From Verrucomicrobium sp. (lineage in GTDB: Bacteria > Verrucomicrobiota > Verrucomicrobiia > Methylacidiphilales > UBA1321), in the NCBI GenBank assembly GCA_017849585.1, contig JAFIGT010000004.1, positions 1 through 38,325 of the forward strand: a DNA stretch of 38,325 nt. Reading direction: 5' to 3'. Position 1 is the first letter of the stretch. Each line of letters starts with the position of its first letter. The translations under genes were made by a program, and so were the position numbers. Below the pieces are notes generated by a model, which saw only the letters and a program-made list of their open reading frames with translations, had not been told where the DNA came from and ran no database searches. Shown one piece after another: positions 1,540 through 31,144 of this stretch.

Positions 1540-1973
1540 AAAAAGCCTCTTTTTGAGAGTGAGTTGAAGGATATATCCAATCATACAACACGTGTTTGGT
1601 TGTGAACAGAAAATATTATCTAAAACATGATTCATAACTATTAAAAAGGCTCTAAAAACAGGCAATTTTTACCCATTCTTTATAAATAGTCTGGCTCCAT
1701 TGAATTTGTCCTAATTTGATCATTGGCCTGAAACTAGGAACAAGCTCTGCGAAAGGCATCCCGGCGTAGGGAAGCGTATCAATTCTAGAGCTGACCTGGG
1801 GTGCGAAACCTTCAGTCGCTTCGATCGATGAAATGTAAGCGGCGCCCGTACAACTACCTGATTCGGAATACGTAATAAGTATAAATTTATGAGCAAATTA
1901 TGCAATGAGCCGCCATGGCCATCTCATTCGTAACCATTACACTCATGGTATAGAAAGCCACTGGAGATCTCAC
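1540..1973. other. Intergenic region between divergent genes
   Basis: This 434-base spacer separates the leftward glycosidase from the rightward PEP-CTERM gene and must carry both promoters. It is clearly more AT-rich (especially 1600-1720) than the flanking genes. I see no convincing gene; the 61-codon reverse frame at 1720-1905 has no motif or ribosome site. A 10-bp perfect palindrome at 1587-1596 is listed separately. Confidence 0.6.
1587..1596. promoter_or_regulatory. Candidate operator, perfect palindrome AACACGTGTT
   Basis: A 10-bp perfect palindrome with a central CG, 48 bases upstream of the glycosidase start codon on its promoter side. Sugar-responsive LacI-type repressors often bind palindromes with a central CpG, so control of the glycosidase-MFS pair is possible. 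The assignment rests on position and symmetry only; 10 bp can occur by chance. Confidence 0.25.
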
Positions 1974-2825
1974 ATGAATATTAGACCTTTCCGTATTCTC
2001 AATGCCGCACTCTGTTTGCTTTTGACCTCAATCGCAGGAAATGCCGCGGTCACTTTAGTGAGTGATAATTTCGACACCTTGGCCAATGGTGGAGCGCGCG
2101 ATGCTTCCGGCAAATATTCCACGGGAGCCACCGCGTCCACGTGGTGGTATGAGAGAACCAGCTCGCTGGCAGCTTCGGCCGTGAGTACTCCCACGCCAAC
2201 GGGCAATTTCTCCGGAAATTTCGTCCAGACTAATTTTACGGGTCCCAGCAATATGGGAGTGGTTTCATTTGCTTCCACAACCCTGGGAGTCGGCGACAAT
2301 CTGTCGGTTCAATTCGATTTCCGCAATCTGGCAACGCCTCCGTCGTTCGATCGCAACCCACAGTTTGGCTTATATAATGGAGTTAACCCCACGGCGGATA
2401 TGACCGGCACCAGCGCGGTGTCTGCGGGCTACAGCATCAATTTTACCGACGCGACCACAGACACGGCGACGATGACCAGCGACACCGATTTTTTTACCGG
2501 CAGCAGCATTGGATCCACGACCCTGCCGACGAATCCGGTGAGTGGGGCCTACACCGTCAACTTCCGGCTCGCCGTGGCCCGTACCAGCGCGTCCACGCTC
2601 ATCTTTAATCTTTATCTGGATGGTGTTCTCATCACCACCTTCTCCGATACGGCAGCCACCAACTTCACGTTCAATGAGTTCGCCTTGCGCGCGCGTACCA
2701 CCGCACAGATCGATAACCTCGTCATCGCCACCTCCGTACCGGAGCCTGGTTCCTATGCGATGGTTGCCATGGGGATAGCCATGATGCTCTTTCTGGGGTC
2801 GCGCAAGCGCCTGGCGCAGGCCTAG
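1974..2825 (+). CDS. PEP-CTERM sorting domain protein
   Basis: 283 residues. The ATG at 1974 is chosen because GGAG stands 7 bases before it and the protein then begins with a proper signal peptide (residues 1 to about 24). The middle is a beta-rich domain of roughly 230 residues without a recognised enzyme motif; it resembles the lectin-like or concanavalin-like extracellular domains common in this class. The C-terminus has the full tripartite sorting signal: VPEP, a hydrophobic helix, then the basic cluster RKR. Such proteins are exported, cleaved at the PEP motif by an exosortase and then anchored or released, usually in exopolysaccharide-producing Gram-negative bacteria. No exosortase gene lies in this window. 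Ligand and function are unknown. Confidence 0.8.
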   Translation: MNIRPFRILNAALCLLLTSIAGNAAVTLVSDNFDTLANGGARDASGKYSTGATASTWWYERTSSLAASAVSTPTPTGNFSGNFVQTNFTGPSNMGVVSFASTTLGVGDNLSVQFDFRNLATPPSFDRNPQFGLYNGVNPTADMTGTSAVSAGYSINFTDATTDTATMTSDTDFFTGSSIGSTTLPTNPVSGAYTVNFRLAVARTSASTLIFNLYLDGVLITTFSDTAATNFTFNEFALRARTTAQIDNLVIATSVPEPGSYAMVAMGIAMMLFLGSRKRLAQA

Positions 2826-10274: not shown

Positions 10275-10442
10275 AGTTAACCAATTTCCCAGTCTTGGGG
10301 CGCGAAGTCAAGCGGCCAAAAGTCACAGAACGGTCACTTTAATGGGAAGCCAGGGAGCCGAAAGAAACTGTGGATACAATGCCTCCCGAACGCCGGCTCC
10401 AGCCGGGACGCCTTCCCCAACCGATTGACAAAGGTAGAACCG

Positions 10443-11753
10443 ATGAATTTGGACGATATATGTGTGCTCGACCGTGCGGAAGCCGGTGCCCAGCAAGATG
10501 TAGTGCGGCTCCATCAACTGGCAGGCCACGTTGACACTGTGCCTCAGGATACGAGCGCTGAAGCGGTGCATCAGCTTTTTCTCTCAAAGCCTAAACTACC
10601 GGGGGTGATGGTGGCGGAGGGACCGGTGCTGATCGGGCTTATCTCCCGCGCCACTTTTTTCCAACTCCTCAGCCGCAAGAATGGGCTGGCGGTGTATCAT
10701 CCCCGCCCCATCTCGCTGATGTTGCAGCATTCCAAGGCGAAGATGCTTCAGCTTTCCCCCACGAGCACCGTGCTGGAAGCGGCGGATCTTTGCCTGCAGC
10801 GGGAACCGGAATTCCTGTACGAGCCGTTCGTCGTCTCGAGCGGGAACGATCACCGTCTGATCGATTTCCATGCGCTGCTGATCGCGCAGTCGCAGTTGCT
10901 GCACAAAACGACGCAACGCAGTCAGCATCAGGAGGCGTTGCTGAAGAAGAAGAACCGCGAGATTCTGGACAGTATTTTCTATGCCCAGCGCATTCAGAAA
11001 TCGATGCTGCGGCATCCGGATCAGATGGACCGCTGGGGACTGGATCTGTTCCTGATCTTCAAGCCGCGCGATATCGTGTCGGGCGACTTCTTCTACGTGA
11101 CCGAGCATCGCGGGGTGGTGTACATCGCGGCGGTGGATTGCACGGGTCACGGCGTACCGGGCGCGTTCATGGCCCTGATCGGTCATAATCTGCTCGATGA
11201 CATTATTACGTCCAAAAACATCCGTGAACCGGACGCCATTCTTTCGTGCCTGCACGAGAGCATCCGTCGCAGCCTGAACCAAGGGAGCGACGCGGGCAGT
11301 GGTCGCGATGGAATGGACGCGTGCCTGTGCGCGATTGATCCGAGCTTGGGCATTCTCAAGTTCAGCGGTGCGAAACGTCCGCTCTATTTGTGCTCCGAGT
11401 CGCAGGAGATCACCGTGATCAACGGCGACCACCACAGTCTCGGCGGGATGCAGCGGGAACGCGCGCGGATCTTTACCACGCAGACACTCGACCTCGTTCC
11501 GGGCCAGACATTTTTCCTCACCACGGACGGTCTCGCGGACCAGCATTCGCCCAACAACGAGAAGCTCGGATCGGGCCGCTTGAAAGCCCTGCTGCAGGAG
11601 ATCCGATTCCTGCCGCTGGCCGAAAAGAAGCAGCGTATCGAGTGCGCCCTCATGGACCATCAAGGCGCGCAGATGCAACGCGACGACATCACGATCATCG
11701 GGGTCGAGTGGCTGGGCAAACCGGCAGTGCACCCCGTATTCATCCGCAACTGA
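10443..11753 (+). CDS. CBS-domain PP2C phosphatase, SiaA/RsbU-like
   Basis: 436 residues from the ATG at 10443, chosen over the TTG at 10425 because AAGG stands 8 bases before it. Residues about 15-150 form a pair of CBS modules (an adenine-nucleotide-sensing domain), followed by a short charged helix rich in Lys and Gln. From about 190 a SpoIIE-type PP2C domain runs to the end. Metal-binding aspartates are visible at 215 (SGDFFYV), 232 (AVDCTGHGVPG), in FFLTTDGLAD and in QRDDITIIGVEW. Expected reaction: dephosphorylation of a Ser/Thr-phosphorylated partner protein. The two downstream genes match SiaB kinase and SiaC, so SiaC is the natural substrate. In Pseudomonas SiaA the input is a membrane HAMP module; here it is cytosolic CBS. 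Confidence 0.85.
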   Translation: MNLDDICVLDRAEAGAQQDVVRLHQLAGHVDTVPQDTSAEAVHQLFLSKPKLPGVMVAEGPVLIGLISRATFFQLLSRKNGLAVYHPRPISLMLQHSKAKMLQLSPTSTVLEAADLCLQREPEFLYEPFVVSSGNDHRLIDFHALLIAQSQLLHKTTQRSQHQEALLKKKNREILDSIFYAQRIQKSMLRHPDQMDRWGLDLFLIFKPRDIVSGDFFYVTEHRGVVYIAAVDCTGHGVPGAFMALIGHNLLDDIITSKNIREPDAILSCLHESIRRSLNQGSDAGSGRDGMDACLCAIDPSLGILKFSGAKRPLYLCSESQEITVINGDHHSLGGMQRERARIFTTQTLDLVPGQTFFLTTDGLADQHSPNNEKLGSGRLKALLQEIRFLPLAEKKQRIECALMDHQGAQMQRDDITIIGVEWLGKPAVHPVFIRN

Positions 11754-11760
11754 GATCCTT

Positions 11761-12351
11761 ATGACCAGATCCCTCCCCTCCGACGAACTCACGCAACTGC
11801 GGCAGTTGCACGAAGCGGCCCTGAACTCCAATAAACTCATCCTCCTATTCAAGGGAGCTATCACGCAAAATACCTTGATCCGGATTGGCGGCCTCCTCCA
11901 TCTCACCCACGAGGAAACGCATCAGGATTTCTCCAAGAAACGACTCTTCTCCGTCCTGGTGGAGATGGCGCAGAACATCCTGCACTATTCCCAAGAGCGG
12001 GAGTTCTTCCCGAAGTCCCACAGCGTCGTCGGGGCGGGAAGCTTGCTGGTGAAGGAAAGTCCGGAAGCCTTCGAGATCGAGGGCAGAAATCTGGTGACCT
12101 CCGAGCAGAAGGCGCGTTTGGAATCCCGCTGCGCGCTGATCAATTCGATGACCGAAGAGAAGCTCCGGGAATTCTATCTGACGCAACGCCGTCAATCCAC
12201 CCAGCCTCAATCAAAGGGCGCGGGATTGGGACTGATCGAGATCGCGCGCAAGTCGAAGAGTCCCGTTGTCGCCCGGTTCAGCGAAGGCCCGAATGCACTG
12301 TATTATTACACCCTTTCCACCCGGATCAGCCGGGACTGCAGCCGCAACTAA
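11761..12351 (+). CDS. SiaB family protein kinase (DUF6272)
   Basis: 196 residues, starting 7 bases after the phosphatase stop. The fold is a GHKL-type ATPase resembling anti-sigma-factor kinases: an N-box-like segment VEMAQNILHYS (67-77, with Glu68 and Asn72) and a glycine box KGAGLGLIEIARKS (152-165). The pattern with the KGxITxxxL segment near residue 31 is characteristic of SiaB homologues. In Pseudomonas aeruginosa SiaB phosphorylates SiaC on a threonine, and SiaA reverses this. The genes flanking it here are exactly those two partners, which strongly supports the assignment although overall similarity to the characterised protein cannot be measured here. Confidence 0.82.
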   Translation: MTRSLPSDELTQLRQLHEAALNSNKLILLFKGAITQNTLIRIGGLLHLTHEETHQDFSKKRLFSVLVEMAQNILHYSQEREFFPKSHSVVGAGSLLVKESPEAFEIEGRNLVTSEQKARLESRCALINSMTEEKLREFYLTQRRQSTQPQSKGAGLGLIEIARKSKSPVVARFSEGPNALYYYTLSTRISRDCSRN

Positions 12352-12375
12352 ATCCCCCAACCATTCCCCCTCCCC

Positions 12376-12765
12376 ATGCAACTCAAGATCGAAGCCACCA
12401 CGACCACGCCGAGCGTGTCGTTCGACCCTGCCAGCGGCGTGCTGGAATTCTCCGGTCAATCCTATCCGGAGGATTCCCTGCCGTTCTATCAGGAAATCCA
12501 GGATGAACTCGCCGCGCATCTGGAGAAAAACAGTCAACCGCTGACGCTGGACTTCAAGTTGAACTACTTCAACACGAGTTCGTCCAAGTGCCTGCTCACG
12601 CTGCTCGAATCGGTCGAGCGGTTTCAGGCCCAGCGCGAAAACATCAAGGTGCGGTGGTTTTACGAAGAAGACGACGAAGACATGCACAGCAGCGGCATCG
12701 ATTTCAGTCTCGATATCCTGCTGCCGTTCGAGTTCATCCCGGTCAAGCAGCTGACGACCGTTTAG
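12376..12765 (+). CDS. SiaC-like DUF1987 phosphoprotein
   Basis: 129 residues, alpha/beta, with the DUF1987 features: an early FDPASGVLEFSGQSYPED strand-turn region, then LDFKLNYFNTSSSKCLL, and a C-terminal acidic EEDDEDM patch. The Thr at position 67 in NTSSSK lines up with the threonine (Thr68) that SiaB phosphorylates in Pseudomonas SiaC. Unphosphorylated SiaC there binds and activates the diguanylate cyclase SiaD, controlling cyclic-di-GMP and aggregation. No diguanylate cyclase follows here; the next gene is a convergent peptidase whose stop is 6 bases away. The output partner must therefore be encoded elsewhere or be different. Confidence 0.85.
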   Translation: MQLKIEATTTTPSVSFDPASGVLEFSGQSYPEDSLPFYQEIQDELAAHLEKNSQPLTLDFKLNYFNTSSSKCLLTLLESVERFQAQRENIKVRWFYEEDDEDMHSSGIDFSLDILLPFEFIPVKQLTTV

Positions 12766-14254: not shown

Positions 14255-14977
14255 ATGCCTCCGCTCGCCTCCCCCCTCGCCTCCTACAAGCCGCCCGTTT
14301 TCGTCGGCACCGTCATCACGCCGCGCGGCCTGCGTTTGCTCAACCGCGTCAAGTTGCCCGCACAGTTGATCGAAGTTCGAGTCGATGAACTCCTCGCCAA
14401 AGGCGTCACTGTCGACGAGATTGAACTCGCCCTCCTCAAGCGTGCCCACCCCGTGCTCCTCACCCTGCGCACCCGCGAAGAGGGTGGCGCGTACACGTGG
14501 CGCGGTTCCAAACGCGAAGAAACCTTCCTGCATCTCCTGCCCTTCGCTGAGCTGATCGATGTGGAACTCGCCCAGGCCAAGGCCATGCACCGCGTGCTCA
14601 AGGCCGCCAAGAAGGCGGGCAAATCGGTCATCTTATCGGCCCATTCGCTAGCTCAGCCGTTGAGCGCGGCGAAAATGAAAGCCCTCGTCGCCAGCTTCGC
14701 GAAGCACGATCTCGACTGCTACAAGATCGCCGCCCGCGTGCATGATCAGGACGATATCCAGCGTCTCGCCTCCCTTCTCTTTCATCATCAGGACCATCCC
14801 TGGGCCGTGATGGGGGTCGGTCCCCTCGCCGCTCATACGCGTTTGATTTTCGCAGTGTTGGGTTCGCGACTGGCTTACGGCTACCTCGATTCCCCGGCGG
14901 CACCCGGCCAGCCTTCAGTTGCCAAACTGAGAAGCCTCCTCGCGCCCTTCCAAAATGCCAAACCGCGTTCACGATAA
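14255..14977 (+). CDS. aroD: Type I 3-dehydroquinate dehydratase
   Basis: 240 residues from the ATG at 14255. The frame is open further upstream, but that part overlaps the small Cys-rich gene and has no homology. Catalyses dehydration of 3-dehydroquinate to 3-dehydroshikimate in the shikimate pathway through a Schiff base. Signatures: IEVRVDEL, LRTREEGG, IDVELA, the catalytic His130 in ILSAHS, the Schiff-base Lys157 in CYKIAA, the substrate Arg in HTRLIF and the closing APGQPS with the conserved Gln. The SAHS box differs slightly from the more usual SxHD. The 3' end overlaps the next gene by 23 bases, which couples an aromatic amino acid gene to a polysaccharide synthase; there is no obvious metabolic reason. 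Confidence 0.88.
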   Translation: MPPLASPLASYKPPVFVGTVITPRGLRLLNRVKLPAQLIEVRVDELLAKGVTVDEIELALLKRAHPVLLTLRTREEGGAYTWRGSKREETFLHLLPFAELIDVELAQAKAMHRVLKAAKKAGKSVILSAHSLAQPLSAAKMKALVASFAKHDLDCYKIAARVHDQDDIQRLASLLFHHQDHPWAVMGVGPLAAHTRLIFAVLGSRLAYGYLDSPAAPGQPSVAKLRSLLAPFQNAKPRSR

Positions 14978-17900
14978 TTTCGTCTTTCTCGACCCCAGCG
15001 GCAAACGCTGGCCACGCCTGCGCTGGATTCTCTTCGCAGGCGCCTGCCTGTTTTTTGTCGTCAGCGTCCTGTTCGTCCAGACGTTATTCGTCACACCGCG
15101 CATGGAATTGCCCGCCGCCGTGCGCCTGCTAAAAAGCGAACTGAAATCCTACAGCCAACCTGCCGCCTCTCCCAACGCGCCAAAACTCCCCATCCCCTTT
15201 CTCGAGAAGTATCAACTCGCTAAAAAAACACGCGCCACCCCCAAACCCAAGCGCACCATCAACGAAGGTATCCGCCTCGGTTACTATGTGGGTTGGGACG
15301 AAGACAGCTACACCTCGCTGCGCAAGCACGCCAGCTCCCTCACGCACATCGCACCGGAGTGGTTCACCATCGACTATGACGGAACGCTGCGCCGCAGCCC
15401 GGATGATCGCATTAAAAAATTCGCCGAGGAGAACGGACTGCGTCTCATCCCAATGCTGACAAATCTTTCCGATCGCGGCTGGCAGCCGGAAGCAGTCGAA
15501 ATTCTGGCCAATGCCTCGCTTGAAAAGCAGATGCTCTTCATCGGACAATTGCTCTACCGCCTCGACCGGGCCCACGCTCAGGGCATCCTGATCGACTGGC
15601 AGCAACTGGACCCCGCCTACAAGGACAAGTACACGCAGCTGCTCTCTCGCTTCGCGGAAGCCTTCCATCGCGAGAAAAAGGAAGTCTGGCTCAGCATTCC
15701 GGTGGGGCAGGAACTCTCTTCTTTCGATCTCGATAAGCTCCCCGAATTCGTCGATCACTTTGTCGCGCAACTCTACGATGAGAACGGTGAAGCCGATGCG
15801 CCGGGGCCCGTCGCGTCGCAAGATTGGTTTGAAGGATGGTTGCACGTCATGGTTGGCTACGGCGATCCGAATCAATGGATCATCGGCATCGGCACGCAGG
15901 GTTATGACTGGGCTCAAGGCCAGCCGGAAGCGGAGAGCATCGGCTTCGTCGACGCCATGACCCGCGCCGCCCATGCGAAGATCGAGCGCATCAAGGTGGA
16001 CGCGCCGTCATACAATCCCCACTTTTCCTACCTCGACGGTGACGTTCGCCATACGGTCTGGTTCCTCGATGCCACCACCATGCTTAACCAATCCCGCGCG
16101 GCCCAGGCAGAAGGCGTCGGCGGTTTTGCCATCGCCCGTCTGGGCACGGAAGATCCCAAAGTCTGGCGCGTGCTTGATCTTGTCAAATTTCCGGAGCTGA
16201 AACCCGAAATGCTCCAACCACTGGAGAACATCCCCACGGGCAACCGTATCGGCGAAGTGGGACGGGGTGAATTCGTCACCATCGATCTCTCCCACTCCGA
16301 CGGCAAGCGGCAGTTTACGATTGGAAAACTCAACCGCACCACGGCCGATTACACAAAATTGCCCGGCTACCTCACCCTCTTCCGGCAAGGAGAAGGCTCG
16401 CCGCGTGAAATCGCGATCACGTTTGACGATGGTCCCGATCCGGAGTGGACTCCCCAGATCCTCGACATTCTCAAGGAGCGTGGAGTCAAGGCGGCCTTCT
16501 TCGTCGTTGGCCATCAGGCTGAACAATATCCCGGCTTGATCAACCGCATCTTGCGCGAAGGCCACGAACTCGGCAGCCACACCTACACTCACCCCAACAT
16601 GGGCCAGATCACGCGTGAACAGGCCAAGCTCGAACTCAATGCCACGCAACGCCTGCTCGAAGCCATCACCGGCCGCTCCACCACGCTCTTTCGCCCGCCG
16701 TATAACGCCGATGCCAAGCCGCAAAACGCCGACGAATTGATGCCCATCGATGTCGCGCAGCAACTCAACTACCTCACCGTTCTGGAAAACATCGACCCAG
16801 AGGATTGGCAACGGCCCGGCGTGGATGAAATCGTGCGACGGGTAAAGGACCAGCGTCGCAATGGGGATATCCTCCTCCTGCACGATGCTGGCGGCGACCG
16901 CTCGCAGACCGTGGCAGCGCTGCCGAAAATCATCGATTACCTACAGAATCGCGGCGATGAAATCGTTTCACTGAGCCGTCTTGTCGGCATTCCGCAGAGT
17001 GAACTCATGCCGCCGCTCAATGCCGAGAGCGACCGCATCACCCGCTTCATCAGCAACACCGGATTCGGCATTTATCACCACGTCACGCAAGCCATGATCG
17101 CCTTCATGATCGTCGCAACCGGTCTCGTCGTCGCCCGCACTCTTGTCGTCATTGCCCTCGCCGCAGAACATCGCCGCATCGAAGCCAAGCTGGTTCTTCC
17201 CACCTTCGCGCCACCGGTCTCCGTCATTATCGCCGCCTACAACGAGGAGAAGGTCATCGCGGCGACTCTCGATTCCGTACTCCGCACCAACTACACCGGG
17301 GCGATTGAAATCGTCGTGGTCGATGATGGCTCCCGCGATCTCACTGCCGAGCGTGTGGAATCCGCATCGCAAGCCGATTCCCGCATCCGCCTCCTGCGCC
17401 AGGCAAATCAAGGCAAGGCACAAGCCCTGCGCAATGGTATGGCTGCGGCCAGACATGATATTTTCGTTCTCCTCGATGCGGACACCCATTTTCAACCCGC
17501 AACCATTCCGAACCTCGTCGCCCCCTTACGCGATGAAAATGTCGGCGCCGTTTCCGGCCATGCCAAAGTGGGTAACACTCGCAACTTCCTCACTCGCTGC
17601 CAGGCGCTTGAGTATGTCTGCGGATTCAATCTGGACCGTCGCGCCTACGCCATGTGGAACTGCATTACGGTCGTGCCTGGAGCGGTCAGCGCCCTGCACC
17701 GCAAATCGGTCGAGGCCGCCGGTGGCATTCAGGATGACACGCTCGCCGAGGACACCGACCTCACCCTCGCGATGCATCGCACCGGTTGTAAAATCGAGTA
17801 CATGCCGCGCGCGATCGCCTGGACCGAAGCGCCCGAGACGATTCGCAACCTCATCAAACAACGTTCCCGCTGGGCCTTTGGGACGCTGCAATGTCTTTGG

Positions 17901-18284
17901 AAACATCGCGACCTCGTGCTCGATTGGGATCATCCGGCGCTGGGCTGGTTCAGCCTGCCAAGCCTCTGGTTTTTCCAGATCATCCTCGTCGCGATCACCC
18001 CGATTGTGGACAGCATCCTGATTCTCTCCCTCATCCTTGGCATTTCTCCGCAAATCTGGATCTACGTCCTGCTCTTCCTCATCATGGACCTCCTGCTCGC
18101 GTTCCTCGCCTGTTGGATGGAAAAAGAGCCCTGGCACCACGCCTTCCGCATCATTCCGATGCGGCTCTTCTATCGCCCCCTCCTTAGTTGGGTGATCTGG
18201 AAAGCCATTGTCCGCGCCTTGCGCGGCGCACTGGTCGGCTGGAGCAAGGTCGAACGCACCGCATCGGTTCACGTCCCCAGTTGA
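14955..18284 (+). CDS. Three-domain polysaccharide synthase: GH18-like, CE4 deacetylase, GT2 transferase
   Basis: 1109 residues. A membrane helix at about 25-45 anchors it. Residues about 105-420 are a GH18-type barrel, but the DGxxxDxE motif reads QGILIDWQ (209-216), so the catalytic Glu is Gln216. Residues about 480-690 are a NodB/CE4 deacetylase with TFDDGP (489-494), SHTYTH, RPPYN and LLLHDAGG, all ligands present. A membrane helix follows (about 710-735), then a processive GT2 domain with VDDGS (Asp790/791), DADTH, EDTD and QRSRW (969-973), then C-terminal membrane helices. The set resembles PgaB plus PgaC fused in one chain, so synthesis and partial deacetylation of an N-acetylhexosamine polymer is the likely role. 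It overlaps aroD by 23 bases. Confidence 0.88.
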   Translation: MPNRVHDNFVFLDPSGKRWPRLRWILFAGACLFFVVSVLFVQTLFVTPRMELPAAVRLLKSELKSYSQPAASPNAPKLPIPFLEKYQLAKKTRATPKPKRTINEGIRLGYYVGWDEDSYTSLRKHASSLTHIAPEWFTIDYDGTLRRSPDDRIKKFAEENGLRLIPMLTNLSDRGWQPEAVEILANASLEKQMLFIGQLLYRLDRAHAQGILIDWQQLDPAYKDKYTQLLSRFAEAFHREKKEVWLSIPVGQELSSFDLDKLPEFVDHFVAQLYDENGEADAPGPVASQDWFEGWLHVMVGYGDPNQWIIGIGTQGYDWAQGQPEAESIGFVDAMTRAAHAKIERIKVDAPSYNPHFSYLDGDVRHTVWFLDATTMLNQSRAAQAEGVGGFAIARLGTEDPKVWRVLDLVKFPELKPEMLQPLENIPTGNRIGEVGRGEFVTIDLSHSDGKRQFTIGKLNRTTADYTKLPGYLTLFRQGEGSPREIAITFDDGPDPEWTPQILDILKERGVKAAFFVVGHQAEQYPGLINRILREGHELGSHTYTHPNMGQITREQAKLELNATQRLLEAITGRSTTLFRPPYNADAKPQNADELMPIDVAQQLNYLTVLENIDPEDWQRPGVDEIVRRVKDQRRNGDILLLHDAGGDRSQTVAALPKIIDYLQNRGDEIVSLSRLVGIPQSELMPPLNAESDRITRFISNTGFGIYHHVTQAMIAFMIVATGLVVARTLVVIALAAEHRRIEAKLVLPTFAPPVSVIIAAYNEEKVIAATLDSVLRTNYTGAIEIVVVDDGSRDLTAERVESASQADSRIRLLRQANQGKAQALRNGMAAARHDIFVLLDADTHFQPATIPNLVAPLRDENVGAVSGHAKVGNTRNFLTRCQALEYVCGFNLDRRAYAMWNCITVVPGAVSALHRKSVEAAGGIQDDTLAEDTDLTLAMHRTGCKIEYMPRAIAWTEAPETIRNLIKQRSRWAFGTLQCLWKHRDLVLDWDHPALGWFSLPSLWFFQIILVAITPIVDSILILSLILGISPQIWIYVLLFLIMDLLLAFLACWMEKEPWHHAFRIIPMRLFYRPLLSWVIWKAIVRALRGALVGWSKVERTASVHVPS

Positions 18285-28890: not shown

Positions 28891-31074
<2,184 letters not shown>

Positions 31075-31144
31075 CTCGGCGTGGAGCTCCACCTTACTGG
31101 TTGTCGCGAATATTTCACGTACTTTTGTCAAAAAAAGGGTGGCC

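Follow-up and report, generated by a model that had tools for sequence, protein, structure and literature searches.

A SiaABC-like partner switch with a CBS-pair input domain in a verrucomicrobial genome without detected GGDEF or EAL proteins

The best-described relative of the locus considered here is the SiaABCD system of Pseudomonas aeruginosa, in which SiaC, a protein with a STAS-like fold, is controlled by the phosphatase SiaA and the kinase SiaB and acts on SiaD (PMC7647112, PMC8457831). SiaC docks on the stalk helix of SiaD, with the residues involved including K77, V78, R80, I81, S82, D83, Y85, Q86, and M88 (PMC8457831), and within the open-access literature searched, it has been characterised only as a diguanylate cyclase activator in Pseudomonas (PMC7647112, PMC8457831). 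Here we analyse a 38,325-nucleotide stretch of contig JAFIGT010000004.1 from Verrucomicrobium sp. (referred to as the window), in which an intact operon of three genes, all on the forward strand and in the order A-B-C, occupies positions 10443-12765 (Table 1). The phosphatase and kinase genes are separated by 7 bases, and the kinase gene and siaC by 24. The phosphatase gene likely starts at the ATG at 10443, with AAAGGTAG at 10430-10437; a TTG at 10425 is only a mechanical start, and the ATG is preferred, in agreement with the original prediction.

Table 1. Coordinates of the siaABC-like genes and their principal features in the window
Feature	Coordinates	Strand	Length	Basis
siaA-like gene: N-terminal CBS pair and C-terminal SpoIIE/PP2C phosphatase	10443..11753	+	436 aa	
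CBS pair, predicted input domain, residues about 19-151	10497..10895	+		AF2 pLDDT, Foldseek and VIA matches
SpoIIE/PP2C phosphatase domain, residues about 187-426	11001..11720	+		PF07228, 6k4e fold match
siaB-like gene, GHKL-type SiaB-family protein kinase	11761..12351	+	196 aa	PF19788, NCBIfam
siaC gene, DUF1987 STAS-like phosphoprotein	12376..12765	+	129 aa	PF09345, 6kko
Thr67 codon, predicted phosphorylation site (Thr68 of P. aeruginosa SiaC)	12574..12576	+		Alignments

Family matches support the assignment of all three genes to a SiaABC module. The phosphatase, of SiaA-type PP2C character, exceeds the Pfam cut-off for SpoIIE (PF07228, 1.5e-20) and matches the NCBIfam SiaA model at 2.3e-56, covering only profile positions 393-654 of 658; the nearest solved fold to its catalytic domain is that of SiaA-PP2C (6k4e, 32% identity, Z 23.4). 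Its acidic metal-site residues D215, D232, D362, and D414/D415 are invariant in the alignment of the three SiaA proteins that carry a CBS pair. The kinase matches PF19788 at 3.9e-34 and scores 141 bits with the NCBIfam SiaB-family kinase model, whose cut-off is 85, and the third protein exceeds the family cut-off for PF09345 (4.2e-39) and aligns with the crystallised P. aeruginosa SiaC (6kko) at E 1.3e-15. The NCBIfam equivalog scores for the Pseudomonas proteins themselves are not reached (191.6 versus 700 bits for SiaA, 73.8 versus 225 for SiaB, and 95.9 versus 150 for SiaC). Thr67 of the window SiaC is retained within YFNTSSSK and aligns to Thr68 of the Pseudomonas protein, and most of the docking residues are also kept in the alignment (Y31, Y65, N67, T68, S69, an acid at 110, and D114 in Pseudomonas numbering). 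The Pfam and NCBIfam matches support the original prediction that these genes form a SiaABC-like partner switch, and the alignment agrees with its proposal that the threonine of NTSSSK is phosphorylatable.

The CBS pair of the phosphatase is below threshold by Pfam (PF00571, E 0.033 with the whole protein and 0.0026 with the N terminus alone), and the same profile matches four of six aligned relatives at E up to 1. Despite this weak evidence we accept it, because an AlphaFold2 model of the N terminus is confident (mean pLDDT 84.8), all 50 Foldseek matches listed for that model are CBS proteins (best E 3.6e-6), and VIA gives a CBS match with Z 13.8 and an rmsd of 2.3 over 122 aligned residues. 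In the model, therefore, the N terminus has a CBS-pair fold where SiaA of Pseudomonas has its membrane sensor, as originally predicted. The accompanying idea that cytosolic adenine-nucleotide status is the input did not find support, because the ribose-binding motif is degenerate in both CBS halves. This motif in nucleotide-binding CBS pairs reads G-h-h'-T/S-x-x-D/N (PMC6429129); in the window the first half reads GLISRAT, with Asp/Asn replaced by Thr, and the second reads RLIDFHA, with Gly, Thr/Ser, and Asp/Asn all altered, so that neither half retains it. No Asp or Asn occupies the final position in either half in any of the six members of the aligned sensor family. Degeneracy of this kind would lower the chance of nucleotide binding without excluding it, and the ligand is probably not a classical adenine nucleotide. 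Fusion of the pair to the phosphatase suggests that the two are coupled. The same sensor subfamily is found on histidine kinases of Verrucomicrobiota (L046, L047, and L123-L134) and on a CheA/Hpt-like protein (L048), with E values down to 4.6e-34; the more distant matches, at E 1e-7 to 1e-14, come from 12 further genomes of the phylum, and nearly all of the proteins read from these are histidine kinases, with many hybrids among them. Where neighbouring genes were inspected for this group (L054-L056), neither SiaB nor SiaC was seen.

SiaC is rare, being found in 3 of 62 genomes of the order and in 4 of 388 genomes of a phylum-wide draw. Besides the window, a trio whose SiaA is of the CBS type was found in the congener G040 (locus L014) and in G006 (locus L015), a genome of another family that is 95% complete in 9 contigs; a tree built from the three proteins groups the three loci as one clade (UFBoot 90). 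No such trio was found in the other congener of the set, G039. In G006, the trio (L015:9201-12113, reverse strand) begins 108 bases after a phoU-like gene that belongs to a co-directional pst-type cluster, and apparent genes for an ArsR-type regulator and a PIN-type protein follow it, all as read by eye; no phoU-like gene was seen by the trio in the window or L014. The genes around the trio in the window (rpe, glyoxalase, lepA, lepB, M42 peptidase, aroD, and a gene for a GH18-deacetylase-GT2 protein) were rejected as its output because none is shared with L014 or L015. The last of these is a 1109-aa frame at 14955-18284 (+), 2.2 kb from the trio, that combines GH18, polysaccharide deacetylase, and GT2 domains and is a possible exopolysaccharide synthase. 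Elsewhere in the window, a protein bearing a PEP-CTERM sorting motif is encoded at 1905-2825 (+), and a single open frame at 28894-31131 (-) joins a low-molecular-weight phosphotyrosine phosphatase, RpiB, and serine hydroxymethyltransferase.

As originally noted, no GGDEF protein is encoded in the window, and the absence extends to the whole of the draft genome from which it comes (G000, 4.79 Mb, 96.09% complete, 43 contigs). Profile searches of six-frame translations gave no GGDEF and no EAL matches in G000, G039, or G040, whereas control genomes gave matches. G000 encodes one SiaC. In each of the SiaC-bearing relatives G006, G187, G104, and G204, one to three GGDEF matches were found, none of them on the contig of the trio. 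The proposal that the output is remote or different is thus strengthened in its second part and, in its simple form, doubtful in its first: a GGDEF protein with a SiaC-binding N terminus had been suggested as something to look for, and neither a GGDEF domain nor a SiaC-docking stalk was found in G000. By this measure, the locus lacks the siaD component that defines the SiaABCD system of c-di-GMP signalling.

What SiaC might act on instead is suggested by related loci. The comparison set comprises nine other SiaABC loci, eight from Verrucomicrobiota and one from Cloacimonadota, none with the CBS pair of the window; they are not independent, as L050-L052 come from one genus and L016 and L049 from another. 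In all nine, siaC is directly followed by a gene for a protein with the stalk motif K/R-x-x-x-I/V-S/G-D-x-x-Q-x-x-L, the core of which (I/V-S/G-D-x-x-Q) is common to these loci and Pseudomonas SiaD. None of the nine stalk outputs has a GGDEF domain. The stalk is fused to a histidine kinase in seven loci (L016, L018, L049, L050, L051, and L052, together with the histidine kinase-REC protein of L017) and to a small Cys-rich domain in the other two, L053 and, in another phylum, L007; the stalk regions of the latter two are weakly matched by the NCBIfam SiaD model (E 0.0034). Motif identity and gene adjacency therefore point to a SiaC docking helix that sits on histidine kinases in Verrucomicrobiota. 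No paper on SiaC with histidine kinases was found in the open-access literature searched, which is no proof of novelty. The short stalk proteins of L053 (5133-5684, reverse strand) and L007 (3659-4129, forward strand) end in a Cys-rich domain of the form LPICSGCKKIRDD.GYWNQVESYI..HSEA.FTHG.CPEC that has no convincing Pfam match, and a neighbouring PAS protein in L053 (8257-10014) ends in the same domain. Six of the loci (L016, L018, and L049-L052) have a SiaA joined to an ammonium transporter (Amt); in L016 (9804-11960, reverse strand) and L018 (9746-11887, reverse strand), for example, a SpoIIE phosphatase with a complete Amt domain (PF00909, 8e-114 in L016) is followed by siaB, siaC, and the stalk histidine kinase. 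These are probably ammonium-sensing partner switches. A search of open-access papers turned up no Amt-SpoIIE fusion, the nearest known arrangement being the Amt-histidine kinase fusion Ks-Amt5 (PMC5764959). For six further SpoIIE relatives, found in Bacteroidota and Acidobacteria (L008-L013), the flanks examined contain no match to SiaB or SiaC.

No comparable stalk was seen beside siaC in the CBS-type clade, that is, in the window and L015, with the contig of L014 ending about 40 bases beyond the gene. Two stalk profiles (A1 and A4) were searched against G000, G039, G040, G006, and G007. The best score in G000 was 11.4 bits, and nothing was returned from G006 at E up to 10; true stalks, when withheld from the profile, reached 28-40 bits. 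One profile match in G000, on C23, belongs to a 163-aa protein without a stalk and was discarded. A degenerate DNA pattern for the stalk, applied to four of the five genomes, gave matches that read as chance and no candidate; the pattern excludes NTG codons at the Ile/Val position and missed the true stalk of G104 for that reason. Of the 37 HisKA kinases of G000, the 30 that were read have no stalk.

From these observations we infer, with somewhat better than even confidence, that the trio functions as a SiaABC partner switch and represents a distinct type gated by a CBS pair, with a cytosolic input and an output other than c-di-GMP. The direction of the signal, the phosphorylation chemistry, and the kind of partner would then be as follows. 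The cytosolic CBS pair would control the PP2C phosphatase; SiaB would phosphorylate SiaC on Thr67, and the phosphatase would remove the phosphate; and unphosphorylated SiaC would dock on a partner protein and switch it. The genome yielded neither GGDEF nor EAL domains, so this partner is presumably not a diguanylate cyclase. By analogy with the nine related loci, it would most likely be another helix-bound signalling protein, such as a histidine kinase, encoded away from the trio and with a docking helix that has diverged past recognition. This diverged, unlinked helical partner is our first guess and an unrelated target our second. It does count against the preferred reading that the conserved docking residues of SiaC would lead one to expect a recognisable partner helix, yet none was found.

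The second guess, that SiaC acts through a non-stalk surface on a quite different target, such as an anti-sigma/sigma pair or a metabolic protein, in the manner of the classical SpoIIAA/RsbV switches, is the more serious of the alternatives, although we consider it unlikely. It would suit the STAS-like fold of SiaC (PMC7647112, PMC8457831) and the failure to find a stalk protein in either G000 or G006, and a connection with phosphate metabolism would agree with the place of the G006 trio, behind phoU in a pst cluster. However, the CBS-type SiaC proteins retain most of the stalk-contact residues in the alignment, the neighbours of the trio in the window, L014, and L015 include no recognisable sigma or anti-sigma gene, and the association with phoU was seen in a single genome. 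A more ordinary explanation would place a classical stalk protein, with a GGDEF domain or a histidine kinase, in the part of the genome, roughly 4%, that the assembly does not contain. The 43 contigs of G000 allow for this, as does the contig end that hides the gene after siaC in G040, but it strikes us as improbable: the independent CBS-type genome G006 also has no detectable stalk, with unrelated genes after its siaC, and neither congener gave a GGDEF match. Nor could an adjacent partner have been lost to a contig break in the window, because the contig continues there into a convergent gene.

It may finally be asked whether the trio is simply a decaying remnant whose output gene disappeared together with c-di-GMP signalling. 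Its patchy presence in the order, the failure to find it in the congener G039, and the lack of a detected output gene would all be consistent with decay. The genes do not look like remnants, however, as the reading frames are open and the catalytic residues conserved in three genomes, the YFNTSSSK region of SiaC is invariant in the alignment of the clade, and dN/dS across the genus indicates purifying selection (0.10, 0.15, and 0.21 for A, B, and C, with dS near saturation). We regard decay as the least probable of these explanations, and quite remote.

If the preferred reading of a CBS-gated switch with a non-c-di-GMP output is true, the occurrence of intact SiaABC without detectable GGDEF domains, together with the docking helix on histidine kinases, would mean that the switch is separable from c-di-GMP, and threonine-phosphate partner switching would be joined to two-component signalling. 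A broader proposition, which we put forward tentatively and with a little less than even confidence, is that SiaABC is a general plug-in threonine-phosphate switch with a SiaC output untied to c-di-GMP, that it directly switches histidine kinases through a SiaD-type docking helix, and that the CBS-gated clade controls a novel class of partner in organisms without recognisable diguanylate cyclases.

Set against known systems, the locus is closest to SiaABCD of P. aeruginosa (PMC7647112, PMC8457831), with which it shares gene order, a PP2C phosphatase (32% identical to the SiaA PP2C domain), a SiaB-family kinase, and a SiaC with threonine in NTSS; it differs in having a CBS pair rather than a membrane-bound sensor on SiaA and no siaD, in a genome without detected GGDEF or EAL domains. 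The RsbU/RsbT/RsbS-type and SpoIIE/SpoIIAA/SpoIIAB switches share the logic of a PP2C phosphatase, a GHKL kinase, and a STAS-like substrate, whereas SiaC of the window is a DUF1987 protein with a predicted threonine phosphorylation site, and no sigma factor is encoded at the locus. The stalk-bearing loci (L007, L016-L018, and L049-L053) likewise combine SiaB, SiaC, and a SiaA-type phosphatase and have the SiaC phosphorylation motif and main docking residues in common with the window, but their inputs are Amt, PAS, REC-PAS-GAF, or membrane sensors rather than a CBS pair, and a histidine kinase or Cys-rich stalk protein directly follows their siaC, as is not the case in the window. The CBS-pair histidine kinases (L046, L047, and L123-L134) and the L048 protein, in turn, share the sensor subfamily of the window SiaA, which in the histidine kinases is joined to a kinase output and in the window to a SpoIIE phosphatase.
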